From Bacteroidales bacterium (GTDB lineage Bacteria > Bacteroidota > Bacteroidia > Bacteroidales > UBA932), in the NCBI GenBank assembly GCA_017477465.1, contig JAFUVU010000036.1:1-60080 (forward strand): a DNA stretch of 60,080 nucleotides, read 5' to 3'. The translations under genes and the position numbers were made by a program. The notes under the pieces are model-generated. The model was not told the DNA's origin and searched no databases. It saw only the letters and a program-made list of their open reading frames with translations. Positions 12,750 to 29,098 of the stretch are shown piece after piece (position 1 is the first letter of the stretch; every line of letters begins with the position of its first letter).

Positions 12750-15494
12750 TTACATGGCGGGGACTTCAATCCACTCCAGGTATTCGGTATTGTCAAGGTC
12801 TTCACCGGTGCCGTATTTGCCGCCGTAACGGTCGCTCCAGCCGTAGTGGAAGTCGATGCTTTCATACTTTCCGGTAGCTTCCTTAAGGATGCCGCCTTCG
12901 CCCTCGTTCATGGGCCAGTAGGCTTTAAGGTGCTCGTCACTGAGGTTTGCGGGAGCCTTCTTCACGAGAGCTGCAACTTCTTCGGCCGAGAGGGCTTTGT
13001 CCCATACGGACATCATTGCAAGGCAGCCGGGATAAGGCTTGGGTGTGTAACCGTCGTCGCCCCAGGAGTCGCCGAACTCGATGGCACCGAAGAGCATCTT
13101 GGAGATGGCGTCTGCGTCGGCGCTGCCGGAGTTCACGAGCACGCCGTCCATGTACAGACGGGGGCCGTTGGTGGCGTCATTCGTCCAGGCAAGGGAGTAC
13201 CATTTGTTGGCTTCCAGAGTGACATCCTTTGCGGGGATGTGAACACTTGTCCCGTTGTTCCAGGATACTGCGATGTGAGCGAAGTCACTTGCGCCTGTGC
13301 GGTCCTGGGAGTTCATGAAGCGGTGGCAGGTAGGGTTGCTCTGGGTAGCTTTTGCCGACATCTTCATCATGATGGGCCACAGACCGTCAACCTTGGTGGG
13401 AAGGAAGTGGATGATGTAGGTATAACCGTTGCTGAGGTCGATGTCGTTCTGGAACACATACCAGTTCTGGGCACCTTCCTTGGCGAAGGACAGAGCTTTG
13501 ATGGTTGTGGGCTGGGGATCCGGATCGACGGGAGTTACGGGCTCGCTGCCGGCTACGCGGGAGCAGATACCGTCAACGGTGGAACCGGCGAGGGTGGTCC
13601 AGGCGGCAGCAGCAGCGTCGCCATTGTCCTTGGCATTATTGTTTCCGTCAAAGCAGGAGGTGAAGTCAAGGTCCATGTCGTCGTTTTTGCCGGCGGTGTT
13701 TTCAATCCATTTGTCGGTGCTGCCGTCGAACTTCCATTCAATCTCCAGGCCTTCGCGGCCGCTTGCGGGCACTTCGCACAGGCCGGCGGCAATTTCTTCC
13801 TTGCTCAGGGCGCGGCTCCATACACGGGTATAGGCGGTGTAGCCGTTGAATGCTTGTTTGAGAGGCCAGTTGGCACCTCCTTCATCCCAGGTCATGGAAA
13901 GGTCGAAGCGGGCAAAGTTCCAGGATGCTGCAGGAGTGTAGGGGAGAGTTGTGACAACTTCGTCGTCATCGTAGATGGTCAGGTTGGTACCGTCTGCCAC
14001 GAGAGTGAAGACAACCCATTCACCGGTGGGCCATACATAAGGTTGACCGTCCTTCTTCAGTTGTTCCTGATTCAGGCCAAGGGCGGAGGCGTTGAGGCAG
14101 AGCTGGCCGTCGGCATCGCCGTCATTGGAGAAGCGCAGGAGAACGGATTTGCTCTCGTCGCTGTTGGCGAATTCGCCAAGGCGGTTGGAGAAAAGCTGGT
14201 TGCCATTGGCATCCCTGTCATTGAACTTATGGTTGTTCCACTTGTTGGAGTAGAATTTCCACTGGAGGGTGACGTTGCTGGGGTTCAGGTCAAGTCCGCT
14301 TCCGAGCATGAAGGTGCTGTTGGTCTTGTAGTCGGACATGTTGAATACTTTCTCCCAACCGGCGGGATTGTAATACTCCATTTCCACGGGCTCTTCTTCC
14401 TTGGCCTTCTGGGCGACCTTGATGGTCTGGAGGACATTCTCGGTACCGGCTGCATAGACTTTAACTTCGCCTGTGCGGATTTCCTCGGTGGGGTTGGCAG
14501 CAACGGCGAGGGTGATGGTGTAGTTGGTGGCTTTGACGTTCTGGACGGTGATCCAGTCGGCCTCGGAGCGTACGTCTACGGAAGCGTTGGAGACGATGTG
14601 AACGTCAACGGTTCCTTCAGCTGCCTCTGCGAGGTAGTCATACTCCTCGGAGACAGGGGTGTCGGTGAGGCGGGAGTAGTCTTCTTCCACTGTGGCGTCC
14701 GGGTCGAAGGTGAGTTTCACGATGGAGGTGAGACCTACCTGGGAATCGGCATAAGCAAGGGCGGAACCTTTGACCACGGCCTTGGGAGTGATGACGAACT
14801 TGTCGGCCTCAACCACGCCTTCGAAATTGCCGTCGGTGAAGATGTCCACCACGGTGCCTTCGATTCCACCGTTAAGGGTGTAAGCTACATCGAAGGGGTC
14901 GGTGCTGGCTATGCTGTATGTGGTCTTGGGGATTACCAGACGGAAAGCGCTGGCCAGGGGAATGGTGATGGTGCTGTCGTCGGAGAGGGTGAGCACTACA
15001 CCTTCGTCAGTGACCTGGATGTTTTTGAAGATGCCGTCCTCGAGGGTGGCGCCGCCGCTGAAGCCGCCGAGTTCCTTGGCTTCACCGCCGATGACTGCAT
15101 AGAGTTTGCCGCCTTCGACATAGATGTTGGAAACGGTGCCCACTACGAGGTCTTTGCCTTCGTAGGTGAGGATGGTCCCGTCAACAGCCCAGCAAAGGTC
15201 ACCGTTGCTGTTTTTGACCACGGAGAGTACACCGGCGCCGCTGCCGCCGGCAGAGATTTTCAGAGTGACAACTGAACCGTCGCCGTATGTTACGGTAACA
15301 CCTTCAGCGGTCTGTTCAACCTTCTGCACATACTGGCCCAAAGCGACAGCCTGGACAGCTGTCATCTGGGCTCTGAGATTGTCCAGATTGGTTTCGAGTG
15401 TGGTAACCCGGTTCTCAAGAGCCGAGTAATCGTACTCTTTAGCGCAGCCCACAAGGAGCAGGGCCATTGCAAAAGCAGATAATACTTTTTTCAT
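12750..15494 (-). CDS. surface lipoprotein with DUF4988, BACON and LamG-like domains, 914 aa
   Basis: Probable surface glycan-binding protein of the utilization locus. Seen: lipoprotein signal with Cys17 (ALLLVGCAKEY), a short coiled coil (ALENRVTTLETNLDNLRAQM) leading into a DUF4988-type region (to about 180), a BACON domain at about 300-370 (SEADWITVQNVKATNYTITL, ending KVAQKA), and two concanavalin/LamG-like domains (about 375-600 and 650-900), each ending with an ALSKEEIAAGL or ALSAEEVAALV segment. It has no recognised catalytic motif. It is the last gene of the SusCD operon, 21 nt after the DUF1735 protein, and is followed by a strong terminator. The domain set matches substrate-capture lipoproteins coded beside SusD. 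Confidence 0.85.
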   Translation of the reverse strand: MKKVLSAFAMALLLVGCAKEYDYSALENRVTTLETNLDNLRAQMTAVQAVALGQYVQKVEQTAEGVTVTYGDGSVVTLKISAGGSGAGVLSVVKNSNGDLCWAVDGTILTYEGKDLVVGTVSNIYVEGGKLYAVIGGEAKELGGFSGGATLEDGIFKNIQVTDEGVVLTLSDDSTITIPLASAFRLVIPKTTYSIASTDPFDVAYTLNGGIEGTVVDIFTDGNFEGVVEADKFVITPKAVVKGSALAYADSQVGLTSIVKLTFDPDATVEEDYSRLTDTPVSEEYDYLAEAAEGTVDVHIVSNASVDVRSEADWITVQNVKATNYTITLAVAANPTEEIRTGEVKVYAAGTENVLQTIKVAQKAKEEEPVEMEYYNPAGWEKVFNMSDYKTNSTFMLGSGLDLNPSNVTLQWKFYSNKWNNHKFNDRDANGNQLFSNRLGEFANSDESKSVLLRFSNDGDADGQLCLNASALGLNQEQLKKDGQPYVWPTGEWVVFTLVADGTNLTIYDDDEVVTTLPYTPAASWNFARFDLSMTWDEGGANWPLKQAFNGYTAYTRVWSRALSKEEIAAGLCEVPASGREGLEIEWKFDGSTDKWIENTAGKNDDMDLDFTSCFDGNNNAKDNGDAAAAAWTTLAGSTVDGICSRVAGSEPVTPVDPDPQPTTIKALSFAKEGAQNWYVFQNDIDLSNGYTYIIHFLPTKVDGLWPIMMKMSAKATQSNPTCHRFMNSQDRTGASDFAHIAVSWNNGTSVHIPAKDVTLEANKWYSLAWTNDATNGPRLYMDGVLVNSGSADADAISKMLFGAIEFGDSWGDDGYTPKPYPGCLAMMSVWDKALSAEEVAALVKKAPANLSDEHLKAYWPMNEGEGGILKEATGKYESIDFHYGWSDRYGGKYGTGEDLDNTEYLEWIEVPAM

Positions 15495-15515: not shown

Positions 15516-16772
15516 TTATTGTGCACACTTGTTCTTTTCGTCCTTTACCCAGTGGACATAGTTGGCTGCGCCGGGGTTGGGGCTGTACTGATCGGGGTCG
15601 TGACCCTGAGGGTCGCTTTCGCTCTTTGACCAGTCCATGTCGTTTCCTGCTACGGAATCGTGGAAGACATGGCCTTCGCCCTCATTCAGCTTCCAGTAGC
15701 CTACCAGGCCGTCGGCCTTGGGATCGGCCGAGCAGAGGGTGGCGGCAATGTCGCTCTGAGCTCGTGCGATGTTCCATACGCGCATCTCGGCTACGCGGCC
15801 GGTATAGCTCTGGGAGCCGTTGTATCCGCCCCAGGACATGCCAAGCTCAAAGCGGTTGAACTTGAACGCCTGGCTTCCGGAAACTTCGTTGCTGAGAGGC
15901 TCATCCTTCTGGCCGTTGATATAGACCATGAAGTTGTTGCCGTCGTAAACGATGGAAATCATATACCACTTGTTCTCTTCGAAAGTGCCCACTGCACTGC
16001 CGGGATCGCCGCTTGCCGACGTTACATAGTGGCCGCCGTTTACAGGGACGATGTCCAGGGCTTTCCAGGCCCGGCCGTTTTCGTTGAAGCGGAGCAGAAC
16101 CTGTCCTCCCGAGTCGCAGCGCCATGCGCAGAGACGGCAGATGTCGCCGATTTTGCTCTTGAGGTCGTAGGTGTGGCATTTGATTTCGAGGGTATAGTTA
16201 TCAAGCTCGTAGCCTTCACTGAATCCCCAGGTGCTGTAAACGCTGGTGTTGTCCACATTCAGGGAATAGGTCTCCATTGTCTTTGAAACCTTTATGAAAA
16301 GGCTCTTGGAAGCGTCCAGAATCTGCTCGCCGGTGCTGTTTTCGAGATAGGCTACGGAAAGCGGAATCATGTAGATGGGGCCCTCTTCGATGAAAGAGTT
16401 GTCCAGCAGAGTGACGGAAGTGATGGCCGACGTGGCCGTTCCCTTCTTGATGGTAACATACTCGTCGTTAATCAGGAAGGCTTTGCGGGGGACGTTGACG
16501 TAGGCAGTCTTGTTTAGCTCGTTATACTTGACAAGTGCCAGGCTGTCAAACTGGATGTGAACCTTCATATCTTCCTCGGCGACGCCGGTTGACGAGAGTG
16601 AGAAGTTGTATGTCATCGGGACATTGTCGGCCAGAATCTGGTCGGAGCTGATGGGAGTTGCGTCCGTCCCGGTAATCATGACGATTTCCTGGCCGTATTT
16701 GAATTTATCGGCCTTATTGCAAGCGACAAGGCTCAAGACCGCAATGACAGAAATTATAAAGTACTTTTTCAT
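15516..16772 (-). CDS. DUF1735/LamG-domain lipoprotein, 418 aa
   Basis: Probable surface glycan-binding lipoprotein. Seen: lipoprotein signal with Cys18 (LSLVACNKAD), an N-terminal DUF1735 (BT_3987-like N-terminal) domain to about 165 with the typical alternating beta pattern, and a C-terminal concanavalin/LamG-like domain (about 170-400) with YWKLNEGEGHVFHDS and MRVWNIARAQSDIAATL. DUF1735 is known from GH18 proteins and their neighbours in Bacteroides N-glycan loci, which fits the GH18 gene 9 nt upstream. It has no catalytic motif. Confidence 0.85.
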   Translation of the reverse strand: MKKYFIISVIAVLSLVACNKADKFKYGQEIVMITGTDATPISSDQILADNVPMTYNFSLSSTGVAEEDMKVHIQFDSLALVKYNELNKTAYVNVPRKAFLINDEYVTIKKGTATSAITSVTLLDNSFIEEGPIYMIPLSVAYLENSTGEQILDASKSLFIKVSKTMETYSLNVDNTSVYSTWGFSEGYELDNYTLEIKCHTYDLKSKIGDICRLCAWRCDSGGQVLLRFNENGRAWKALDIVPVNGGHYVTSASGDPGSAVGTFEENKWYMISIVYDGNNFMVYINGQKDEPLSNEVSGSQAFKFNRFELGMSWGGYNGSQSYTGRVAEMRVWNIARAQSDIAATLCSADPKADGLVGYWKLNEGEGHVFHDSVAGNDMDWSKSESDPQGHDPDQYSPNPGAANYVHWVKDEKNKCAQ

Positions 16773-16781
16773 AAGCGCAGT

Positions 16782-17924
16782 CTACTCGTGGGGATTGATA
16801 ATCTGGATGGCGCGGCGCAGGAAGCCGTAGTTGGAGAAGTCGGTCATAGCGTAGCCTTTCTTGTCAAGGGCTGCCTTCCCGTTGTCGTAGTCGTTGTCGA
16901 TGTAGTAGGCGCCGAAGCCGCCTCCCTGTCCATTGGTTGCATCGGAGGAGTAGCGGGCGTAATATTCCAGCGTGTACATCTTTTCGCCGGCTGCATTGGT
17001 GCCAGCAGGATATCCGCCGTTCGCGAAGTTGGCGCCTTCGCCGGAAGACTGCTCATACTGCTCGCAGTAGACCATCTTCTCGGCCGGGCACCATGAAGGG
17101 CCGCCCACGGAAGAGCCCTGGGCTGAATAGGCCTGCTTCACCAGATAGTTGATGTAAGGCTCGATATTTCCGTCAGGATAGCTGCCGAAGTAGTCCACAA
17201 TCAGGAGCTTTTCGGGATTGGAGCCTTTTGGACCGAAGTATTTGCCAACCTCGTCCACCACCCAGTAAATCTGCTGGCTGCCCCAGCCTTCGTAGTCGAA
17301 ATCGACGCCGTCAAGGCCGTGAGTGTTCACGATATCGACCACCAGGCGGCCGTAGGCGCGGATGGACTCTTCATTGTTGCCGTCGACTTTATAGTACTGT
17401 CCGTCCAGTTCGAATTCCTGGCCGTAGTGGGAGGCGTCGGCATGCATGACGAACTTTGTGCCTTTCATCTTCTGGCAGTACTCCAGGTCGGCATAGGCGA
17501 TGGGAGAATAGTCGTAGCTGTGCATGGGACCGCGGGTGACTTCTCCCGTCTCGGGATCGGTAATGTTGCCGTAGAAGCATGCATCGGTGTACTCATCCTT
17601 CATGGGAGTGCCCATCCAGAGGTTCACGATGTCCAGTGAGTCGGGCAGGGAAATCAGGCGGGGGCGCATGGAGGAATATTCGATGTAGAGGCTGGTGGAG
17701 CCTTCGGCGGGAGCCCAGCGGGCGAAGTATACGTATGAGATGGTGTGGGGAGTTTCCTTCCACTCACGGATGTTCTCATAGTAAGCGAGCTGTTCTTCGC
17801 TCAGTTCTTCCACAACGCCGGGCGTCTTGAAGGTCTGGAGCGTGATTTTCTCCACTTTGGTGTCACAACCGGCAATCATGCTGGCTGCGAGTGCTAAGGA
17901 AAGGATATATGTGATTCTTTTCAT
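16782..17924 (-). CDS. GH18 endo-beta-N-acetylglucosaminidase-like lipoprotein, 380 aa
   Basis: Family GH18; members in such loci cleave the chitobiose core of N-glycans, others are chitinases or binding proteins. Seen: lipoprotein signal with Cys20 (AASMIAGCDTK), a (beta/alpha)8 core, and an intact DxxDxDxE motif in LDGVDFDYEGWG with Glu212 as the general acid, so hydrolysis is likely rather than binding only. It sits between SusD (12 nt away) and the DUF1735 protein (9 nt away), all on one strand. A surface location would let it release oligosaccharides for SusCD import. N-glycan specificity is an inference from context. Confidence 0.87.
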   Translation of the reverse strand: MKRITYILSLALAASMIAGCDTKVEKITLQTFKTPGVVEELSEEQLAYYENIREWKETPHTISYVYFARWAPAEGSTSLYIEYSSMRPRLISLPDSLDIVNLWMGTPMKDEYTDACFYGNITDPETGEVTRGPMHSYDYSPIAYADLEYCQKMKGTKFVMHADASHYGQEFELDGQYYKVDGNNEESIRAYGRLVVDIVNTHGLDGVDFDYEGWGSQQIYWVVDEVGKYFGPKGSNPEKLLIVDYFGSYPDGNIEPYINYLVKQAYSAQGSSVGGPSWCPAEKMVYCEQYEQSSGEGANFANGGYPAGTNAAGEKMYTLEYYARYSSDATNGQGGGFGAYYIDNDYDNGKAALDKKGYAMTDFSNYGFLRRAIQIINPHE

Positions 17925-17936
17925 TTTAACCGCTGT

Positions 17937-19508
17937 TTAGTTGTTGAACGGTTTCTGGTCCCACCAGAGGCGTACGCCGGCGTTGTCGGCACCGCCAAGG
18001 GCTTCGACACCGGATTCATAACCCACTTTGTTGTCGCTCTGCTCCGATACGGGATAAGGAACGCGGCGGATGCCCTGGCTGGTTTCGACGACGCCGTTGG
18101 AGAAGTTCTTCACGGGTTCAATCAGGACAGGGTAGTGGAGCCGGCGGTATTCGGCCCAGGCTTCGGCGCCATTGGGGAAGAGGGCGAGCCATTTCTGCGT
18201 GCCGATTTTCTCGAGCTTGGCTTCCACGCTGGCGTTTTCCTTCCAGGCGATGGTGACGCTTGAAGGGGCGGCTGCGTTGTTGCGGCTCACATTGTCTTTG
18301 AAGGCCGCAGGGACGGCGCTGCTGTTGGCAAGGTAGGAGGAGACGCCTTCGGCACCCCATTCTTCGAAGGAGAGGCGGATGCCTTCTTCGTAGAAGTCCT
18401 GTGCGCTTCCACCGGCATTCCAGCCAATCAGGGCGGCCTCGGCCTTAAGGAAGGCGACTTCTGCGGCGTTCATCCAGCAAAGCTTGTAGATACCGGCGTT
18501 GGGGGCAGATACCTTGCCGGCCGCATTGCCATAGCTGGTCCAAGTTGAAGGCGCGACTGCGGCACGTACTCCGTGGAGAGCTCCGTCGGCTGCGGGTTTT
18601 GCGTAGAGGAATCTGCGGGGGTCGTTATATCCGTTCAGATATACGTCCATGGAAGCGCCCATCTGGGTTTCACCGTTGCCGAAGTTGAGGTTGATTTCGG
18701 AGATGGGGTGGTGCTCCACGCCGCTCATAATTGCGTTGCCGGAGTTTGTCTCAATCATGCCGAGGGTGTTGGTTAAAGACTTTTCAGCCTCGGTGCGGGC
18801 AAGCTCTTCGTCGGCAAAGCGGACGCGCATTGCAAGGCGCAGGCGGAGGGAGTTTGCGAACTGGACCCACTTGGTGGCGTCGCCGCCGTAAACGAGGTCG
18901 TAGTCTTCAAGCAGTTTTGCGCCGCTTGCGGCAACTTTCTCGAGGATTTCGATGGACTCGTCCAATTCCTGGAAGAACTGGCTGTAAACTACGTCCAGGG
19001 GATCGTACACATTTGTGAGTTCGCCGTAGTGTGAGTATGCGATGGGACCATAGTAGTCGGCCACCTGGTGCATGGAAGCAACTTTCAGGACCTTTGCTAG
19101 GGCAAGTTCATTTTCCATGCCGAGCTCTGTCGCTGACTCTTCGAAGTCCTTGTAACCGCCCATGGCGTACTCGTATTTGACTGTGAACATGCGGCGGTGC
19201 CAGCCGTCGTTGACATCCCAGCCGGCATGGTGACCGTCCCAGTTGGTGGGCGAAAGGTAGCCGCACCATGTGTCGGCGCAGAGATTGTACATGATCTGGT
19301 AATCGGAATCCAGGTATGTACCGTCGCGGAAGATAATGACGGAGCGCTCAAGCTGCTGCAGCATGCCGCCGATGGCAAGACCGTCCTGGGCCATCTGCTT
19401 GTCGCTGACGCCGAACTGGTCTTTGTTGATGTCCTCAAAGCCTTTGGTACATGCAGGAAGCAGGGCTATAACGCCTGCGAGGAGAATCGAATTGAATATA
19501 TTTTTCAT
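17937..19508 (-). CDS. susD-like: SusD/RagB-family nutrient-binding lipoprotein, 523 aa
   Basis: Outer-surface lid of a SusCD glycan importer, of the SusD-like_2 type. Seen: lipoprotein signal (IALLPACTKGFEDINKDQFG), TPR-like helices, YYGPIAYSHYGELTNVYDPLD near 195, and the late region QKWLALFPNGAEAWAEYRRL (binding-site type). The ATG at 19508 is preferred to the one at 19514 because a ggag sequence sits 9 nt before it and only 3 nt before the other. It follows the SusC gene by about 15 nt. The partner SusC has an unusual C-terminal domain. Confidence 0.93.
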   Translation of the reverse strand: MKNIFNSILLAGVIALLPACTKGFEDINKDQFGVSDKQMAQDGLAIGGMLQQLERSVIIFRDGTYLDSDYQIMYNLCADTWCGYLSPTNWDGHHAGWDVNDGWHRRMFTVKYEYAMGGYKDFEESATELGMENELALAKVLKVASMHQVADYYGPIAYSHYGELTNVYDPLDVVYSQFFQELDESIEILEKVAASGAKLLEDYDLVYGGDATKWVQFANSLRLRLAMRVRFADEELARTEAEKSLTNTLGMIETNSGNAIMSGVEHHPISEINLNFGNGETQMGASMDVYLNGYNDPRRFLYAKPAADGALHGVRAAVAPSTWTSYGNAAGKVSAPNAGIYKLCWMNAAEVAFLKAEAALIGWNAGGSAQDFYEEGIRLSFEEWGAEGVSSYLANSSAVPAAFKDNVSRNNAAAPSSVTIAWKENASVEAKLEKIGTQKWLALFPNGAEAWAEYRRLHYPVLIEPVKNFSNGVVETSQGIRRVPYPVSEQSDNKVGYESGVEALGGADNAGVRLWWDQKPFNN

Positions 19509-19523
19509 ATGCATGGTCTCCTA

Positions 19524-22500
19524 TTATTTAACGATGCACACGGCAACGCGGTTGGACTCGGGACTCTGGGCGGCGTCACGGTCGCTGCCATTGGCGCTGT
19601 AGCTGATGCGGTTGGCGGGGATGCCGGCTTTTTCGAGCATCTGAGCCACCTTGGCGGCGCGCTCTTCCGAGAGTTCTTTATTGTACTCGGCCGAACCTGT
19701 GCCGCTGTCGGCATAGCCTGTGATGGTAATCTTGGCATCCGGGTTGTCTTCGAGAATCTGGGCAATCTTGCCCAGCTTGAAGGCTTCCTCGGGGCGGATT
19801 TCGGCTTTGTTGATGATGAAGTAGAGGTCGTCTTCATAAGTGCCTTCGAGGGTCTTGCCGTCGGAGACTTTGACTTCCTTGACAACTTCCTTGATTACTT
19901 CAACGGGAACTTCCTTGATAACTTCCTTCTCAATGATTTTCACATTGTCGTTCTTGGCCACGTAAGGCTCCACGTGTACTGGAGCGGCCGGGGCCTTGGA
20001 AGCGGTGCTGCCGCCGAACTTGACCTTTACGGAGAAGCCCAGGCTGCGGGTAGAAGGCTGCATGAAGTAGTCCACGCCCTGGTTGTAAGTGCCTACGTTT
20101 GCGGTCATTTCAGGGTCGAAAGGAGCCTTTAGGTAGAGCATTGCAAGGTTGTTGCCTACCACGGAGAGGTTCAGGCCCTTGAGCCAGTTCCAACCCCATT
20201 TGGCAACGGGGAAGTCGTAACCCAGGGAAACCTCGGCAAGGCGGACGTTGGTGGCGTCATAGACGTACTGGCTCATTACGCCGTCGCGCACGCCGAGGAC
20301 CTGATAGTAGGCCTGGACATCGCTCTGGCGCATGCCGTTGATTTCGAAATATCCGATTTCGCGGGCATCGGCAGTGTCCTGAGATATGCCGAAGTAGTCC
20401 AGGATGGCCTGAGTCTTGGAAATAGCCACACCACCCAGACGGGCCGTGAAGAGGAAGCTGGCGGTGAGGCCGCCGTATCCCAGGTGGCCGCCCCAGCTCA
20501 GCCTGTGCTTGGCATCCGTGGAGCCGGCGTAGATCATGTCTTTTTCGTCATAGTCGGCCTTGATCATGCCGGCGTTGGTGGCGTCGTAGTAGCCGTGTTC
20601 GTCGGTGGCGATGGTGGTGACATATACATCACCCAGGGTGCCGCCTTCATAAAGGAACTGCTTTACGCCGGAGAAACCGCCGACGGGAAGTCCGTTGCCG
20701 TCATATACCTGTCCGGTTACGGGATCCTTGAAGCTCAGGCTCACTATCCTGTTCTGGTTCCATGTCCAGGTGAAGAAGGTGCCCCAGTTGAGCTTGCCGG
20801 CCGAGTCGTCGTAGCGGAGAGATGTCTCTACGCCCCAGTTGTCCACCTGACCGCCGTTGAGGTAAATGTCGCTGTTGGTGGAAGTGGAGGACAGGCGGGG
20901 GTTGTAGAACTGATTGAAGGTGCTTGCTTTATAATAGGTGGCGTCCAGCTGAACCTTGCTGTCAAAGAAATGGACATTGGTACCTATTTCCCAAGACTTT
21001 GTACGCTCGGGTTGAAGGTCGGTGTTGGCGCGGCGGGTGTTGCGGGTAATGGTGCCGTTATTCTGCGTTGCGCGGGGATCCAGCAGGTACAGGGCCGGGT
21101 CGGGCGAGTTACCTACTTCGGAATAAGAAGCGCGGAGTTTCCAGTAAGGGAAGAAACTGCTCTTGAGGGCAGGGATTATCTCCGTCATTATGCCGGAAAG
21201 GCCGATGGTGGGGTAGGTGATGGCACCGGCTGTCCAGAGGGTTGAGTTCCAGTCGGCCCTGAAGGTCATGTCCAGATATACTTTGCTGCGGTAGCCGACC
21301 TGGGCGTTTGCGAAGACTGACTGGTTCTGGTAGCGGTACCCGTCACTGCCGATACTTGCGTTGGCGCTCGACCGGTTGATGTTGGAAAGGTCGAACTTGT
21401 TGTTGACCTGGGCCAGCGGGCCGCCTACGAAGTCGGTGCGGAATATGACGTCGTCAATATTGGCGCCCACGACGCCGGAAACGTTCACGACATTGTCGCC
21501 GAAGTATTTATTGAATGTGGCCAGCACTTCGCCGAATTTCTGCTCGGTGAACTGGTTGTTGCGGCTGTACAGACCGTGCTTGGAACCCTCGGTGAAAAGG
21601 GTGTTGGTGCCGGCGTCGAATTTCCTTTCCTGCACTTCGTCGGTGCGGTCGAATTTGGCGCGGGCGCTGAGGGTGAGCCATTTCCAGGGCTTATAGGAGA
21701 GCTGGGCGCTTCCCATCAGACGGTTCTTGCCGTTCTGCCATTTCTGATGTTCGGTAATCCAGTAGGGGTTCTGCATGGAATACTCGAAGTTGTAGGGCCA
21801 GAACTGGGTCTTGAAGCCGCGGCCGGTGTCGTAGCGCTCGTACACCTGAAGTTTGGAGAAGTCGTCGCCTGCAGGGAAGAGGTAAACGGGAACGACGGGG
21901 TTGCCGTATTCACCCTGGGCAATCATGTTCTGCTCGTTCACTCGGCCGTAGGTGATGTTGACGTCCATGGTGAGGATGTCCTTCACTATGTCGGTGGTGT
22001 TGCGGAAACTTAGGTTGTATCTGTCCACATTGTTGTTATGCACAATGCCGCGTGCATTTGCAACTGAGGCCGATACATAGGTCTGGCTGCGGTCGTTACC
22101 GGTGCTAAGGGACAGGGAATTCACCTCGTTCACGCCGGTCTGGAAAAAGTCGCGGGGGTTGTAGGTCGAGGGAACTGCCAGTTTCGGGCCCCAGCTGTAG
22201 TAAGACCCGGGAGAAGATGCTCCGTAGGTGTTTTGGAACTCGGGCATCACATAGGCACGGGAGAAGCTGGTATTGTTGGAATAGTTGATTTCCAGTTTAT
22301 CCTTGTCGCCTTTCTTTGTAGTGATGATGATAACACCGTTTGCAGCGTTTGCGCCGTACAGGGCGGCGGCTGATGGGCCGGAGAGGACGGAAATGCTCTC
22401 GATGTCGTCCTGGTTCAGGGAGCCCAGAACGTCACCGGTCTGTCCGGCACCGGCGTAAGTGCCTTCCGGCTGTTCGCCGCGAAGGGACTGCATGGGAATA

Positions 22501-22805
22501 CCGTCGATGACGTACAGAGCGTTGTTGTTGTTCGAGATTGACTTCGAACCGCGCATCACGATACGGGAGCTGCCGCCCACGCCGGTCGAGGACTGGCTGA
22601 TGGAGACACCGGCCACCTTACCGTTGAGGCTGTTCACGAAAGAACCAACCGGAGAGACGCTCTCCAGTTTGGTCTGCTGTACGTTGTAGGAGAGGGATTT
22701 TTCCTCTTTCTTGATACCCATGGCGGTGACAACAGTCGCATTGAGTGCGATGTTGGCACTTGCAAGAGTGACATTGATGACAGAGCGGCCGTTAATTTGC
22801 TCCAC
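19524..22805 (-). CDS. susC-like: SusC/RagA TonB-dependent transporter fused to a C-terminal OmpA domain (main part)
   Basis: Outer-membrane glycan importer. Seen: plug domain with ALYVIDGIPMQS and the box SVLSGPSAAALYGANAANGV (about 95-165), a 22-strand type barrel, and a last strand around RSLGFSVKVKFGG (about 918-930). It then continues with a linker (about 930-990) containing KEVIKEVPVEVIKEV and an OmpA-type domain (about 992-1093) with GYADSGTGSAEYNKELSEER; Asp1033 and Arg1049 are the usual diaminopimelate-binding positions. Ordinary SusC proteins end at the barrel. The first part of the gene (signal peptide and carboxypeptidase-like domain) is at 22889-23074 in another frame; a run of eight G at 22901-22908 separates the two frames, and the true frame runs up to it. 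The GTG at 22805 is not a real start. It heads the SusD-GH18-lipoprotein operon. Confidence 0.92.
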   Translation of the reverse strand: MEQINGRSVINVTLASANIALNATVVTAMGIKKEEKSLSYNVQQTKLESVSPVGSFVNSLNGKVAGVSISQSSTGVGGSSRIVMRGSKSISNNNNALYVIDGIPMQSLRGEQPEGTYAGAGQTGDVLGSLNQDDIESISVLSGPSAAALYGANAANGVIIITTKKGDKDKLEINYSNNTSFSRAYVMPEFQNTYGASSPGSYYSWGPKLAVPSTYNPRDFFQTGVNEVNSLSLSTGNDRSQTYVSASVANARGIVHNNNVDRYNLSFRNTTDIVKDILTMDVNITYGRVNEQNMIAQGEYGNPVVPVYLFPAGDDFSKLQVYERYDTGRGFKTQFWPYNFEYSMQNPYWITEHQKWQNGKNRLMGSAQLSYKPWKWLTLSARAKFDRTDEVQERKFDAGTNTLFTEGSKHGLYSRNNQFTEQKFGEVLATFNKYFGDNVVNVSGVVGANIDDVIFRTDFVGGPLAQVNNKFDLSNINRSSANASIGSDGYRYQNQSVFANAQVGYRSKVYLDMTFRADWNSTLWTAGAITYPTIGLSGIMTEIIPALKSSFFPYWKLRASYSEVGNSPDPALYLLDPRATQNNGTITRNTRRANTDLQPERTKSWEIGTNVHFFDSKVQLDATYYKASTFNQFYNPRLSSTSTNSDIYLNGGQVDNWGVETSLRYDDSAGKLNWGTFFTWTWNQNRIVSLSFKDPVTGQVYDGNGLPVGGFSGVKQFLYEGGTLGDVYVTTIATDEHGYYDATNAGMIKADYDEKDMIYAGSTDAKHRLSWGGHLGYGGLTASFLFTARLGGVAISKTQAILDYFGISQDTADAREIGYFEINGMRQSDVQAYYQVLGVRDGVMSQYVYDATNVRLAEVSLGYDFPVAKWGWNWLKGLNLSVVGNNLAMLYLKAPFDPEMTANVGTYNQGVDYFMQPSTRSLGFSVKVKFGGSTASKAPAAPVHVEPYVAKNDNVKIIEKEVIKEVPVEVIKEVVKEVKVSDGKTLEGTYEDDLYFIINKAEIRPEEAFKLGKIAQILEDNPDAKITITGYADSGTGSAEYNKELSEERAAKVAQMLEKAGIPANRISYSANGSDRDAAQSPESNRVAVCIVK

Positions 22806-22888
22806 TACATCTTCCTGTCCGATGTACGAGAAGCGCAGGGATGTAGCTGAGGCGGGAACAGCGATGGAGTAGTTCCCGTCCAGGTCAG

Positions 22889-23074
22889 TTATTGCACCGA
22901 GGGGGGGGTAACTCCTTCTACAGTCACGCTTGCGCCGATGAGCGGCTCACCGTAGTCATCGGTTACGGTTCCTGTCACGGTCCGTGTCTGGGCCATGGCA
23001 AGTCCGCCTGCGATGAACAGTCCTGCAATAGCGGCGAGCGCTCCTGCTAAGACTTTCTTAAGTTGGTAACTCAT
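22889..23074 (-). pseudogene. N-terminal part of the SusC gene, frame-shifted
   Basis: Encodes the signal peptide (residues 1-29, ending GGLAMAQ) and the start of the carboxypeptidase D-like domain (VTGTVTDDYGEPLIGASVTV). After VEGVTPP the frame runs through eight C on the coding strand and meets a stop (SVQ*). With one more C, or two fewer, the reading continues as LGAITDLDGNYSIAVPA and joins the SusC protein ending at 19524. So this is one gene of about 1,180 codons broken at a homopolymer. It could be a sequencing error, a mutation, or slippage-based switching. Confidence 0.85.
22901..22908. repeat. poly-G tract (8 G) at the SusC frameshift
   Basis: A run of eight G on the + strand (C on the coding strand) lies exactly where the two SusC frames need to be joined. 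It is the simplest site of the length change. Confidence 0.85.
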
Positions 23075-23166: not shown

Positions 23167-23192
23167 CTAAAAAGATTTAGCATTTTTTGCTA
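23167..23192 (-). terminator. weak terminator after DUF1573 gene
   Basis: On the minus strand tagca/tgcta (5 bp, A-rich loop) overlaps the stop codon and is followed by ctttttagg. The stem is short, so termination may be partial. Confidence 0.4.
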
Positions 23193-23927
23193 TTTCTTTA
23201 CAGCAAGTACGGTCAGTTTTTCTTCCGTAGGCTTTCCGTTAACTTTTGGCTGAATGGTAAACTTCACTGAATCAATGCCTTCCGGCATGGTGAACTTTAC
23301 ATGAATGGTGTCCCGCTCATCGGCCTTCATAAGACCTGGCTGGCGCATCCTCAGGTAGGGTTGCCACTGCTCCGGGATGTCGAAGGTGATGTCGGCCTTT
23401 CGGCTGCCTCCGTTGCCGTGGCGGAAGAACATGTCCTTGGTCTGGCCCGGCGCGGCGCTGCCGAAAGACAGCACCTTGTGGCTCATGTACAGACCCTCGC
23501 CCATCGCATAGGGCCGGTCTTCCTGGATTGGATGCTTATATCCTATGACTTCTCCTTTGATGACCAGGCTGCGGCTCTTGACGGGCGAGTTTTGGTAGTA
23601 GACTACTATCTGTTCCATCATCTGACCTGGCCTGTAGGCGGGATTGTAGGTGACTTCCAGCATTTCGTCATTTCCCGGAGCCACCGGCTTGCGGTCAAAA
23701 TGTACCTCGGTGCAGCTGCAGGGAGTATAAAGGCGCAACGGGAAGAGGGTGTCCGGATAGTCGTTCCTGACCAGAAGGCGCACAGTAACCGGTCCTTCGA
23801 TTTCCTTAATCTTTCCAAGGTCGGCCTCTGTTGATGTTGTAGTGCGTATGGTGCGGATGCCGTCCTTCGGCCCGCATGAGGCCAAAAGCACTAAAGCCCC
23901 CGCCACCGAAAGCACTCCCTTTGACAT
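23190..23927 (-). CDS. DUF1573 lipoprotein, 245 aa
   Basis: Small secreted protein with a DUF1573 immunoglobulin-like domain (about 40-140 from the chosen start; YTPCSCTEVHFDRKPVAPG matches the conserved CSC segment) and a second beta domain. The ATG at 23927 gives MSKGVLSVAGALVLLASC, a compact lipoprotein signal. Earlier in-frame ATGs at 23948, 23969, 23993 and 24014 lie inside an interspersed repeat and would add arginine-rich peptides (MRFFASLRMTKG), so they are not preferred. It follows the GH29 stop by about 80 nt and is probably co-transcribed. Function is unknown; DUF1573 proteins are common in Bacteroidota envelopes. Confidence 0.82.
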   Translation of the reverse strand: MSKGVLSVAGALVLLASCGPKDGIRTIRTTTSTEADLGKIKEIEGPVTVRLLVRNDYPDTLFPLRLYTPCSCTEVHFDRKPVAPGNDEMLEVTYNPAYRPGQMMEQIVVYYQNSPVKSRSLVIKGEVIGYKHPIQEDRPYAMGEGLYMSHKVLSFGSAAPGQTKDMFFRHGNGGSRKADITFDIPEQWQPYLRMRQPGLMKADERDTIHVKFTMPEGIDSVKFTIQPKVNGKPTEEKLTVLAVKK

Positions 23928-24020
23928 TCTGAGCACTCCCTTTGTCATTCTGAGCGCCCCCTTTGTCATTCTGAGCGAAGCGAAGAATCTCATAGTCCTG
24001 ACAAAGAATCTCATAGTCCT
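23913..24020 (+). repeat. interspersed repeat, three tandem units
   Basis: Three units of the type ccctttgtcattctgagcg follow one another (the first has gacatt), and the last continues into gaagcgaagaatctc. Then a 20-bp piece (aagaatctcatagtcctga type) is present twice. It covers the 5' region of the DUF1573 gene and touches the GH29 stop. Same family and same orientation as 29411-29480, 49357-49392 and 59346-59438. Confidence 0.8.
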
Positions 24021-25828
24021 GAAACAGTGTCGTTGTACAGGCCGAAGCCGTTAAGCACCGGGCAGGCAAGGGCGCTCTTTATTTGAATGCGGACAGCATC
24101 CGTAGTGACAGTCGAACCAAGAAGTATGCGCTTATAGCCGATGGTGGTGCCGCTCACCCAGTTGCTCCAGGAGCCGTTTTTCTTTACCTGTACAGTGAAA
24201 CTTTCCACCCTCTGTCCGAGCGGAATGTACTCCTGCAGCATAACGCGGTTGAAGGTCTTGCTGCCGGCGAGCTGCAGCTCGATATCCACGGTCTTTACGG
24301 CGTCGTCGGTGGCGAAGTAGCTGTCGTAATTGCCGTCAAGCATGTTCTGGGCGGCATATCCGCTGTAGTTTCCGCGCACATTCGAGGCCGATGCCGTGGC
24401 ACCGTCGGCAAGGTTGGTGTTGAAAATCTGCTTGCGCATGCGCGTAAACTCCTCAATGACAGTCTTTTCCTTGCTGCCGATGACGCCGCTGCGGTCCGGA
24501 GGTACGTTCATCAGGAACACGCCGTTGCGGCCGACGCTGGTGTAGTAGATGCGCATCAGGTCCTTCGCGCTCTTGACATTGTCGCTGGGGTCGTAGAACC
24601 AGCCGTCGCGGTCGCCGATGTCCTGGATGGAGAAGTCGCATTCGGCCGGTACCCAGGATTCGCCGTTTCGGTCGCCGCTGCCCAGGACGGTTTCATAATT
24701 GTTGCCGGCATGACCGGGAGTGATGCCGCGGCTTTCTACGTTCAGGGTGCTCCAGTTGGTCTCGCCTGCGGCACCGTTCTCGTTGCCTACCCAGCGGCAG
24801 CCGGGGCCGCCGTCGGAGAAGATGACGCAGTCCGGATTCACGCCCAGGATAGCCTCGTGCACCGAGGGCCAGTCAAAGTTGCCGGCATGGTTGCCGTCCA
24901 GCCAGAATTCCACGACGGGAGAATATTTTGTCATGAGGTCTTTGGCCGAGCTCTTGTACATCTTCTCGTATTCCTGCGTGGACTTGCCGCTTATCTCAAT
25001 CATACGGTCCCAGGGGGAGAGGTAGATACCCATCGCTACGCCGTATTTATTGCAGGCGTCGCGCACGGCTTTGACTACGTCCGTATGGTTCTTGGCTTTG
25101 GAATTGGCGACGTCGGTGGTGCTTTCGGGGTTGTCCCAGAGGCAGAAGCCGTCGTGGTGTTTGGCGGTGAGGATCACTTCTTTGAACCCGTTGTCGGCAG
25201 CGGTTTTAACCCACTGATCGGCATCGATTGCCGTAGGGGTGTAGTTGTTCAGAAGCATTTCCTCGCTCCAGTCTATGCCTTCATTTTCCCCGTCGTATCC
25301 GGAGAAAGTAGCCTGGCCGAAGTGGTAGAACATAAGCATTTCCCTCTTCTGCCATGCCAGCTGTCCGGCCGACGGAACGGCACCATAAGCTGCGGGAGCC
25401 CCGGGGTCTGAAGGGTCGGGCTGCGGGTTTGGATTGGGGTCGGGTTCCGGGTCCGGTGACGGAGTCCAGTGGCCCACTACAGTTATTTCGCAACTGGCGG
25501 TAAAGCCTCCCTCGGCAGTTTTTACGCTTACGGTGGCATTTCCTTCGTCCACTGCCCTGCCTTCGCCGCTTTGTGCGTCTATGGTGACGATGCTCTCATC
25601 CGAGCTGCTCCATAGAAGTGTCTGATTTGTAGCATTTGCAGGCACGACTCTGGCTTTGAGCGTAAAGCTGTCGCCGGCTCCCAGAGACAATTCTGTGCGG
25701 GTGAGAATGACGCCCGTGACGGCTACTTCCTTGTTTTCTTGTGAATTTTGGTTGGCCTCTGGCGTGCAGGTGCAGCCGAAAGCCAATGCGATGGCCATAA
25801 GGGCCAGGGATTTGATGACAGATTTCAT
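24011..25828 (-). CDS. GH29 alpha-L-fucosidase with Big_2 and F5/8-type domains, 605 aa
   Basis: Releases alpha-linked L-fucose, probably from host or mucin-type glycans. Seen: lipoprotein-like signal (LALMAIALAFGCTCTPEA), a bacterial Ig-like Big_2 domain (about 36-118), a proline/aspartate linker (about 120-145), the GH29 barrel (about 150-465) with AKHHDGFCLWDNPES and the nucleophile in VVEFWLDGNHAG (Asp311), and a C-terminal galactose-binding/F5-8 type domain (about 470-600). The WDNPEST segment suggests the alpha-1,3/4 subfamily (inference). It has its own promoter word at 25860-25867. The 3' end touches an interspersed repeat. Confidence 0.92.
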   Translation of the reverse strand: MKSVIKSLALMAIALAFGCTCTPEANQNSQENKEVAVTGVILTRTELSLGAGDSFTLKARVVPANATNQTLLWSSSDESIVTIDAQSGEGRAVDEGNATVSVKTAEGGFTASCEITVVGHWTPSPDPEPDPNPNPQPDPSDPGAPAAYGAVPSAGQLAWQKREMLMFYHFGQATFSGYDGENEGIDWSEEMLLNNYTPTAIDADQWVKTAADNGFKEVILTAKHHDGFCLWDNPESTTDVANSKAKNHTDVVKAVRDACNKYGVAMGIYLSPWDRMIEISGKSTQEYEKMYKSSAKDLMTKYSPVVEFWLDGNHAGNFDWPSVHEAILGVNPDCVIFSDGGPGCRWVGNENGAAGETNWSTLNVESRGITPGHAGNNYETVLGSGDRNGESWVPAECDFSIQDIGDRDGWFYDPSDNVKSAKDLMRIYYTSVGRNGVFLMNVPPDRSGVIGSKEKTVIEEFTRMRKQIFNTNLADGATASASNVRGNYSGYAAQNMLDGNYDSYFATDDAVKTVDIELQLAGSKTFNRVMLQEYIPLGQRVESFTVQVKKNGSWSNWVSGTTIGYKRILLGSTVTTDAVRIQIKSALACPVLNGFGLYNDTVSGL

Positions 25829-25971: not shown

Positions 25972-28900
25972 TTATCTGGGAATCAGCGTGAAGGAGTAGC
26001 TGTAAGCTGTGTCGGCCCAAAGGGTGAGGTCTTTTTCCGGGCGGGCACCCCAGCTGTCGTAGCCGCCCAGGCCTGTCATCTTATAGTCGATGCAAACCTC
26101 CGTAAAGTCGCGCACGGGAACGTCGCTGATGTGAGTCTGGCGGCGGACACGGTTGCGGCCGGCTTCGGCGGAGTGGTCCTCATCGGCCCTGAAATAATTC
26201 CATTGGTAGGGACGGTCGGTCGCTTCTTCGCAGTCCAGGTCTTCCACTGTCTGGCGGAGGACGTTGAATTCGAAGGGAGCGGAGGAGACAATCTTGAGTC
26301 CGTCAACTTCCAGCCAGCTCACCTCCGTGTGGTGACCGGTCTCCTGAGGCCTTACGTAAGGATAGAATTCGGCCGATGCAGTGCTCTTGAAGATGCTCTT
26401 GAAGGTGCAGCTGCTGCGGTCCCAGTAGTTCTCCACAGGGCCGCGGCCGAAGTAGCGGAAAGCTTCGCCGGGAACGTGGAAGCGGATGCCCAGGCGGGGG
26501 ATTTCCACACGCACGTGGTAGCCGTCTCCGGTGGGCAAACCTTCTGCGGGGGCGGTGGCTACGTCAATCTTCAGGGTACCGTCGGCAAAGAAGGTGTACA
26601 CTTCCTTGGCGCGGACGTCCTTGCCTGTGACCGTGATGGCTACGCTGCCGTCGGCAAGGCTTTCTGCACTCACCATGTCGGGATTGGCGGGGTGTTTGAA
26701 ACGCTGGGCGCGCAGAGGCTCGCCGTTGCCGTAGTCGTTATCTACGGGCGCTCTCCAGAAATTGGGCTTCAGGCCGAAGTCGGGGTTCACGACGTCGCGT
26801 CCCTTCACCTTCCAGCTCTTTACGGTGCCGGTGGTCTTGTCGAAGATAAGTTCGGCCTTTGCCGAGCGTACGACAAGCTGCGTGTCGCCGTCGGTGAAGC
26901 TCACTTTCCCCTTGTTGACCAGTTCCTTAGGGGCCGATGTGTCTTTAATCAGAGCCTCGTTGTTGGCGATGACGGTGCCTCCCGGAAGGAGCGGCTGGGC
27001 GTCCTTGACGATGACTTCGAAGAAGATGCGGTACTCGGCGGCCTTACGCATGCGGGGGAGTTTGACGGTAATCTGCTCGGCCGTCTGCGGGGCTGTCGTC
27101 AGGTGCAGTTTGTGGGTGCGCCACCAGAAGGGCTTTTTGCCGTTGCGCTCTACCCACCACTTGATGGTGTAGCCGTCCAAGCTGGTGAAATAGTGGCGGT
27201 TGAAGACCTCGAAGATGCCTTTTTCAATGTCAATCGGCCTGATGTCGATATTTTGGTAAACGTGTTTTACTTCGTAGAAACCGGGGTGAGGGTCGCGGTC
27301 CGGGTTGACGAGACCGTTGCAGAGGAAGTTGCCGTCCGAGGGCATTTCGTTTCCATAGTCGCCGCCGTAGGTCCAGACTCTTTCCTTATCGTAGAGGCCC
27401 TGGTCCACCCAGTCCCAGATAAAGCCGCCCTGCAGGTGAGTGTGGGCGTAGAACTGGTCCCACTGCCAGTCGATGGAGCCGTTGGAGTTGCCCATTGCGT
27501 GGGAATATTCGCAGAGGGCGATAGGTTTGGCGCTGTAGCTTTCGCCCATCCTGCGCAGCCAGTCGGTACCGGGGTACATGGGGTTCAGGAAGTCGGTGTT
27601 CCAGTCGTACTCCGCCCTTTCATACACTACAGGACGGTTCTGACCGTCGGCCTCCAGTTCCTTGAGAAGCTTGTAGGTGGCGTAGAAGTTGACGCCGTTG
27701 CCGGCTTCGTTGCCAAGCGAGAGAAGGGTTACGCAAGGGTAATTGGCAGTGCGGCGGTACATGTTAAGGGTGCGGTCCACATGCTTTGTGAGCCATTCGG
27801 GTTTGTTGCCGAGGGTGTGGTCCGGATGGTAGTACATGCCGTGGCTTTCGATGTTGGCTTCGTCATATACATAGAAGCCGAGGGAGTCGCAGAGCTCGTA
27901 GAATTCTCTGGGCTGAGGGTAGTGGCAAGTACGGATTGCGTTGATGTTGCAGAGTTTCATCAGCTGCAGATCCTCAAGGATGTTTTCCTTGGTGATATAG
28001 TGGCCGGTGTAGGGGTTGTGCTCGTGCAGGTTTACGCCTTTGAATTTAATGGGCTGACCGTTGAGGAAGAAGGCTTTGACGTCCCTGTCGCCGTCTTTTG
28101 CGGCCTTGATTTCGATACGGCGGAAGCCTACGTGGAAGCGGGTGTATTCGCCGTTCACTTTGAGCAGGAGGGTGTAAAGCTCAGGCGTTTCAGCGCTCCA
28201 GAGGCGTACGCCGGGGATGCTGTCGGTGACCGTAGCCATGTGGCCGTTGAATTCGAAGCTGGCATCGGCAACAGCCTGGCCGTCTTTGTCAAGAAGCTCG
28301 TACGACACCTCCGTAGGGGCCTCGGAGTGCATTTTCAGCTTGAAGATGCCGGTTCCAAGGTCTTCGGTCAGGGTGGATACTACGCTGAAGTCGAAGCCTG
28401 TGTCCTTGGCCTCGCTGGAGAGGTAAACGTCGCGCTCTATGCCGGAGATTCTCCAGAAGTCCTGGCACTCAAGGAACGAGCCTGCCGAGTAGCGGTAAAT
28501 CTTCAGAAGCAGCTCATTCTCACCTTCTTTGAGGGCCGATGTGATATTGTACCGGGCAAGGCTCTTGGAGTCTTCGGCATAGCCGATCTCCTTGCCGTTC
28601 ACGTACACGTATGTGCCGCTCTTGGTGCCGCAGAGGTTAAGGAAAACCTCACGTCCTTTCCAGGATTCGGGAACGTTGAAGCTGCGGTGGTAAAGGGCGC
28701 CGGGGAAGGTTTCCGGCAGCACCGGTGGCTGCGGGTTGTCGGGGCAGAAATCGTATTTGTGGTTTGTGTAAATGGCTGTGCCCCAGCCCTGAGTCTCCCA
28801 GTTTGCGGGTACTGCAATTTTATCCCATGTATCCGGGACGGCTATCTTTTTGTGGTCGTCAAAATATTTGAAGTCCCATGTTCCGTTGAGGCCGATGTAG

Positions 28901-29088
28901 TTTTCGCTCTCACGGAAGCCTTTTGTCAGGGCGTCTTCACGCGTGGCATAGTAGATAACCTCGGTGCGCTTTGTGTTGGCATTTACGGATGTTGTCTGAG
29001 TGTCCTGCCAGTAAGGAAGTTCCTGAGCCTGAGCGGCCAGGCATCCCGTTAGCATCGATGCAAGGAGGATAAAAGATTTTTTCATCAT
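25972..29088 (-). CDS. GH2 beta-galactosidase (LacZ-type), 1038 aa
   Basis: Large exo-beta-galactosidase of family GH2. Seen: signal peptide (MMKKSFILLASMLTGCLAAQAQ), sugar-binding and Ig-like domains, TIM barrel with the acid/base glutamate in LSLGNEAGNG (about Glu461) and the nucleophile in ALCEYSHAMGNSNG (about Glu527), then the C-terminal beta-galactosidase small-chain domain. The length matches LacZ. The ATG at 29088 is chosen; the in-frame TTG at 29094 is less likely. It follows GH3 by 10 nt in one operon ending at the 25893-25962 hairpin. Secretion suggests periplasmic trimming of imported oligosaccharides. Confidence 0.95.
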   Translation of the reverse strand: MMKKSFILLASMLTGCLAAQAQELPYWQDTQTTSVNANTKRTEVIYYATREDALTKGFRESENYIGLNGTWDFKYFDDHKKIAVPDTWDKIAVPANWETQGWGTAIYTNHKYDFCPDNPQPPVLPETFPGALYHRSFNVPESWKGREVFLNLCGTKSGTYVYVNGKEIGYAEDSKSLARYNITSALKEGENELLLKIYRYSAGSFLECQDFWRISGIERDVYLSSEAKDTGFDFSVVSTLTEDLGTGIFKLKMHSEAPTEVSYELLDKDGQAVADASFEFNGHMATVTDSIPGVRLWSAETPELYTLLLKVNGEYTRFHVGFRRIEIKAAKDGDRDVKAFFLNGQPIKFKGVNLHEHNPYTGHYITKENILEDLQLMKLCNINAIRTCHYPQPREFYELCDSLGFYVYDEANIESHGMYYHPDHTLGNKPEWLTKHVDRTLNMYRRTANYPCVTLLSLGNEAGNGVNFYATYKLLKELEADGQNRPVVYERAEYDWNTDFLNPMYPGTDWLRRMGESYSAKPIALCEYSHAMGNSNGSIDWQWDQFYAHTHLQGGFIWDWVDQGLYDKERVWTYGGDYGNEMPSDGNFLCNGLVNPDRDPHPGFYEVKHVYQNIDIRPIDIEKGIFEVFNRHYFTSLDGYTIKWWVERNGKKPFWWRTHKLHLTTAPQTAEQITVKLPRMRKAAEYRIFFEVIVKDAQPLLPGGTVIANNEALIKDTSAPKELVNKGKVSFTDGDTQLVVRSAKAELIFDKTTGTVKSWKVKGRDVVNPDFGLKPNFWRAPVDNDYGNGEPLRAQRFKHPANPDMVSAESLADGSVAITVTGKDVRAKEVYTFFADGTLKIDVATAPAEGLPTGDGYHVRVEIPRLGIRFHVPGEAFRYFGRGPVENYWDRSSCTFKSIFKSTASAEFYPYVRPQETGHHTEVSWLEVDGLKIVSSAPFEFNVLRQTVEDLDCEEATDRPYQWNYFRADEDHSAEAGRNRVRRQTHISDVPVRDFTEVCIDYKMTGLGGYDSWGARPEKDLTLWADTAYSYSFTLIPR

Positions 29089-29098
29089 ATTCAAGTGG

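Follow-up and report, generated by a model that had tools for sequence, protein, structure and literature searches.

The window analysed here is a 60,080-nucleotide stretch of contig JAFUVU010000036.1 from a Bacteroidales bacterium (assembly GCA_017477465.1). The gene under study lies on its reverse strand and encodes a SusC-type outer-membrane importer which continues, in one open frame, through a linker into an OmpA-type domain; this SusC-OmpA fusion was confirmed as real. The initial annotation had treated positions 19524..23074 as one gene, and two reading frames were found there instead, with the fusion frame open only from 22946. The features of the gene are listed below.

19524..22946, minus strand: SusC-OmpA fusion open frame; stop codon at 19524-19526, first usable start a GTG at 22805, giving 1093 amino acids (aa)
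22332..22682, minus strand: TonB-dependent receptor plug (PF07715), residues 42-158 of the 1093-aa open reading frame (ORF), 54.4 bits
20010..22331, minus strand: SusC beta-barrel region to its last strand RSLGFSVKVKFGG, delimited from the reading of the frame and from TIGR04056
19824..20009, minus strand: KEV-repeat linker of 62 residues, rich in KEV/KEVPVEV, mostly predicted to be without structure (predicted local distance difference test score, pLDDT, below 50)
19554..19823, minus strand: OmpA-type domain (PF00691), residues 995-1084, with Asp at 19707-19709 and Arg at 19659-19661
22889..23074, minus strand: signal peptide and start of the N-terminal carboxypeptidase-like domain, 61 codons plus stop in the other frame
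22901..22908, minus strand: run of eight C (eight G on the plus strand), the point where the two frames part

The upstream part was identified as SusC both by the plug domain and by TIGR04056 (SusC/RagA), which scored 570.7 bits over 20016-22901 and exceeded its curated cut-off of 368.25. As had been proposed from the sequence, the frame runs on past the last barrel strand, which ends at about 20010 and is followed by the linker with KEVIKEVPVEVIKEV and then by a full OmpA domain. PF00691 scored 66.7 bits in a Pfam scan of the ORF (cut-off 27.2; profile positions 1-91 of 98) and 71.9 bits in the genome search, and the expected pair of residues, Asp1033 and Arg1049, was present at the positions which we take to be those holding diaminopimelate in OmpA and Pal. 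The Pfam scan returned OmpA, Plug and a weak DUF748 match and nothing else; an SLH domain, a feature of OmpM, was not among these matches. PF00593, a family named in the initial annotation, gave no match to the window protein at E<=0.001 in the same scan, which says little because only 35 of 76 related fusions match it.

With respect to recurrence, the genome of the window contains 23 SusC matches over the TIGR04056 cut-off, two of them partial, and four of the 23 carry an OmpA tail (one each on contigs C67 and C16, two on C15). A first collection of 42 fused frames, including that of the window, was assembled from searches of 31 related genomes and 398 genomes of the family. Named genome contigs were then scanned with the tail alignment and the best 80 of 256 loci were taken. 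At 76 of the 80, a single open frame runs for more than 500 residues before the tail starts, and at the remaining four (L159, L168, L183, L190) the frame is cut at the end of the stretch; within the 76, L177 and L202 also touch a stretch end and the frame of L143 is just 683 aa. At E<=0.001 all 76 named fusions matched both TIGR04056 and PF00691, while the plug was matched by 75 and PF00593 by 35, and so the domain search of homologues proposed in the initial annotation showed that the fusion recurs. Of the 80 record titles, 38 named a host, in each case a ruminant (goat, sheep, dairy cattle, water buffalo, roe, red and water deer, reindeer); the rest named none in the part shown.

A survey of 400 genomes of the genus gave 115 tail matches at E<=2.3e-42 in 43 genomes, a lower bound because the divergent tail of L282 (G330) scores below this level. 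Frames of at least 930 aa held 111 of the 115 matches and four were shorter (319, 338, 435 and 683 aa); among those listed, the weaker genus matches (to about E 4e-36) all lay in frames of 411 aa or less. In the family survey (398 genomes), long fused frames were found in two genera, g1 and g28, among the matches listed. The order survey (393 genomes) showed no fusion among the matches listed outside the family, whose frames were at most 824 aa, and in the phylum survey (395 genomes) E<=1e-22 was reached only by the genome of the window and by one genome with a 400-aa frame; neither survey would pick up a SusC fusion whose OmpA domain is very different. The fusion thus recurs in one Bacteroidales family and was not seen outside it among the matches listed. 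The arrangement had been called uncommon, which holds outside this family among those matches; within the genus it recurs, in 43 of the 400 genomes.

After removal of 29 duplicates, the collections held 89 different fusion proteins, with 41 genome labels between them (the collections overlap, and a genome may bear two labels). At least 1.8 kb of downstream DNA was available for 87 of the 89, and in all 87 an ORF of 455-693 aa that has a Cys early in its sequence begins 1-29 bases past the fusion stop. Pfam families assigned to these 87 proteins, which overlap, were SusD-like_3 (55), SusD_RagB (53), SusD-like_2 (53), SusD-like (29) and BACON (6), and most fusions have a SusD partner. These data also bear on whether the susC-ompA join is an artefact of assembly or sequencing. 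The genomes are metagenome-assembled and the window copy has one frame break, as such an artefact might produce; set against this, SusC and OmpA models lie in one frame at 76 named loci from many separately assembled records, and every one of the 87 checkable fusions has a lipoprotein-like gene no more than 29 bases downstream. We consider an artefact next to impossible. The initial annotation had named a mis-assembly without any fused homologue as the finding that would overturn it; many fused homologues were found, and for the family a mis-assembly is ruled out by the four tailed SusCs in one genome, the 76 named loci and the 43 of 400 genus genomes.

Two variants were observed within this set. 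Downstream of L121 (10275-11639; group core5), and probably of other core5 members, the gene encodes a BACON-type lipoprotein of about 455 aa unlike SusD. A short SusC type lacks the N-terminal part of TIGR04056, with matches starting at profile positions 66-112; it occurs with a tail (L102 8830-12114, L122, L125, L151, L185, L188, L204) and without one (L269, L312, L314), and in several genomes lies close behind a full-length SusC.

The OmpA domain and its linker were analyzed in the aligned tails and by structure prediction. Asp80 and Arg96 in tail numbering (ORF 1033 and 1049), together with Asn89 and Leu92, were invariant in 42 of 42 aligned tails; loss of the Asp/Arg pair in relatives, which would have spoken against the annotated function, was not seen in this alignment. 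The nearest solved chain was 9uu2, 'Major outer membrane protein' (E 9.3e-14), with Pal next. In a prediction for the last 176 residues, residues 12-66, corresponding to the linker, had a pLDDT below 50, and the domain followed the OmpA-like element order E-H-E-H-E-H-E with block means of 77-95, in keeping with a disordered linker leading to a putative OmpA-like fold. The OmpA domain had a median ratio of nonsynonymous to synonymous substitution (dN/dS, Nei-Gojobori) of 0.245, with 135 of 140 pairs usable, as against 0.157 in the SusC core (134 of 140). On the strength of the median of 0.245 the domain is, as far as codon comparison indicates, kept by purifying selection, although exchange of tails blurs the figure.

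A different role for the domain was considered, in which wall binding has been lost and the tail serves as a spacer, in oligomerisation or in quality control, for example by excluding SusCD from vesicles or by helping in assembly. In Neisseria and Bordetella, the OmpA_C-like domain of RmpM connects outer-membrane porins to peptidoglycan, and the firm attachment of RmpM to the porins is presumably by way of a different domain (PMC8610307). The Asp, the Arg and the surrounding NxxL motif are nonetheless invariant across diverse tails and the domain appears to be under purifying selection, and we regard a loss of binding as improbable.

The linker had also been described as like that of Bacteroidales OmpA proteins. 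This was only weakly borne out, with a KEV/EKIV-type linker in one of 12 standalone OmpA-domain proteins (L217). In the tails of L099, L100, L101 and L135 a second linker type was observed, an Ala-rich coiled-coil-like stretch replacing the KEV repeats.

The distribution of tails among SusCs was then compared with the relationships of the SusC cores, a subject beyond the initial annotation, relative to which the cassette behaviour of the tail is new. The cores of the 89 fusions fell into 21 groups (single linkage, 50% identity). A FastTree tree was built from 165 SusC cores, 89 tailed and 76 untailed, with L101 left out as incomplete. At least 22 gains or losses of the tail were counted on this tree, 19 of them forced by starred branches, compared with 54.5 for shuffled labels; the count is rough, given long branches, tailed rows picked by their tails and untailed rows drawn from five genomes. 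L282, with its divergent tail, was counted as tailed, and treating it as untailed gave 21 changes with 19 likewise forced. Because SusCs with and without the tail are intermingled on the core tree, a single fusion event in one SusC clade was rejected as a full explanation. In seven untailed relatives the DNA after the SusC gene held a susD-like lipoprotein gene directly downstream and no tail remnants.

The best single case of exchange was provided by L106 when compared with L132 and L133. DNA identity before the tail was 97.5 and 96.7%, respectively, dropped to 73.7 and 73.3% across the linker and OmpA domain, and rose again to 94.4 and 93.4% over the 900 bases past the tail. At the protein level the OmpA domains were 49% identical and the core stretches 98-99%. 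One susC/susD pair is thus near-identical except in its tail, which from the alignments is a clear case of tail exchange. Taken together, these comparisons suggest that the tail is a cassette that SusCs of one Bacteroidales family have gained, lost and, in at least one case, swapped. Whether that family keeps a pool of linker-OmpA tails, with recombination putting them on and taking them off many kinds of SusC importers, we judge to be evenly poised; if it does, whether a given nutrient importer is attached to the wall would be a swappable trait open to evolution.

We propose that the gene encodes a SusC importer tied to the cell wall by a linker and OmpA tail that acts as an exchangeable cassette, and we give this reading a probability of about 0.72. 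SusC barrels, like those of TonB-dependent transporters generally, end in the periplasm, and the tail would therefore be expected to point towards the wall. The architecture, this expected location and the conserved Asp/Arg pair make peptidoglycan binding plausible, and judging from the conserved residues the OmpA domain most likely binds diaminopimelate-type peptidoglycan via Asp1033 and Arg1049, tying SusCD to the wall. We infer both the periplasmic position of the tail and its effect on transport. The flexible KEV-rich linker would extend the barrel C-terminus into the periplasm with the OmpA domain at its end and, when stretched, its 62 residues could reach well over 10 nm. Binding to wall peptides would, as the initial annotation had suggested, hold SusCD laterally in place and give a counter-hold against the pull of TonB on the plug. 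A further effect may be to exclude the importer from vesicles. With the tail behaving as a cassette, anchoring would be an option set importer by importer.

Several observations weigh against this proposal. The data come mostly from metagenome-assembled genomes, and the window fusion gene is itself frame-broken at its N-terminus. A motif containing the Asp and Arg was found in all 76 named fusions, but the Asp is there by construction because the scan pattern contained it, and therefore only the Arg counts as free evidence in that set. The clear swap rests on one assembly, L106, compared with others. Tails mostly track the core groups (25 changes versus a shuffled mean of 54.2 and a possible minimum of 10), and in the tail tree none of the starred branches requires an exchange. 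Among unrelated cores, tails were hardly more alike in the same genome (mean identity 0.65, n=72) than in different genomes (0.61, n=3429). The same genome also retains other OmpA-domain proteins in shorter frames, and therefore the tail is not the sole tether.

Some stronger readings were set aside on the same observations. Wide recent shuffling of tails was not shown, given that tails mostly track core groups and the lack of a starred branch forcing exchange; concerted evolution of tails within a genome was unsupported by the within- and between-genome identities; and the tail as a substitute for other OmpA proteins was unsupported, such proteins being present in the genome.

The tail might alternatively be mainly structural, with abundant SusCs acting as extra OmpA-like outer-membrane anchors and transport unaffected. 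SusCs are usually expressed on demand, which fits poorly with such a role, as do the presence of the tail on only some SusCs of a genome (four of 23 over the cut-off here) and the other OmpA-domain proteins that remain. In its favor, OmpM combines channel and tether in one protein (PMC10628300), and in Bacteroides fragilis TonB-dependent transporters count among the major components of the outer membrane (PMC4319957). We consider a mainly structural tether unlikely.

The frame break in the window copy was characterized separately. The signal-peptide frame starts at 23074 and stops at 22889-22891, and a separate TIGR04056 match at 22913-22984, covering profile positions 1-24, lies in this out-of-frame N-terminal piece. 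The two frames part at the C8 run, which is the sole G/C run of at least 7, or A/T run of at least 8, in the window, and which is possibly a slippage site or a sequence error. In L104, a near relative from another genome of the genus, the N-terminus is intact and in frame. Accordingly, the window copy may represent a mutated gene, an off-state or an error in the sequence, and the break may leave it inactive.

It is possible, though we lean against it, that the window copy is a decaying pseudogene or the phase-off state of an otherwise functional family member. The position of the break at the only such run in 60 kb is consistent with this, as is the single early in-frame stop found in the N-terminal region of L108, L109 and L117, three others among the first 42 collected fusions. 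Frame breaks close to the beginning of such genes are thus recurrent. Conversely, the remaining frame of 1140 codons is open and keeps the conserved residues, and a run longer than five was present in none of the 13 core0 relatives comparable at the site. Regulated slippage is therefore not a family trait, and a general slippage switch at the C run was unsupported.

TonB-dependent SusCD importers rank among the main constituents of the Bacteroidota outer membrane, where they are held against TonB pulling and membrane flow. The window protein resembles SusC/RagA proteins (TIGR04056) in its plug, its barrel, the susD gene directly downstream and the surrounding polysaccharide locus. It differs in that all 76 untailed SusCs compared end at a barrel-like last strand whereas it continues into the linker and OmpA domain, and in that its signal peptide and carboxypeptidase-like N-terminus are out of frame, unlike those of L104. 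With OmpA and Pal (PF00691) it shares the domain, the Asp and Arg and the pattern GYAD..TG...N..LS..RA; the standalone members examined here, however, are small proteins of about 360-500 aa, whereas here the domain sits on a TonB-dependent importer. A single protein serves as channel and wall tether in OmpM of diderm Firmicutes and SlpA of Deinococcus (PMC10628300), but these are porins with an N-terminal SLH domain and neither plug nor OmpA domain; the fusion parallels OmpM in an unrelated, energised transporter. RmpM is a separate protein acting in trans, whereas the OmpA domain here is in cis on SusC. No description of a SusC-OmpA fusion was found in the parts of the literature searched, most subscription papers and all preprints lying outside the scope of that search. 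Related SusCs occur naturally with a tail, without one and with the tail exchanged, and such sets allow a direct test of what anchoring does to an importer.

The genes surrounding the fusion, identified by Pfam scan, were as follows.

17937..19514, minus strand: SusD-like lipoprotein (PF12741, 539.1 bits), starting 9 bases past the fusion stop
16782..17924, minus strand: GH18 protein, BT1044-like
15516..16772, minus strand: protein with BT_3987-like N-terminal and laminin-G-like domains
12750..15494, minus strand: DUF4988/BACON/laminin-G-like protein
23190..24014, minus strand: DUF1573 protein, upstream of the fusion gene
24011..25828, minus strand: alpha-L-fucosidase with Big_2 and F5/8 type C domains
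25972..29094, minus strand: GH2 beta-galactosidase

The locus looks like a polysaccharide utilisation locus, putatively for a glycan containing N-acetylglucosamine, galactose and fucose. Beside it, at 11341-12690, lies a gene for an arylsulfotransferase-like protein (PF05935).

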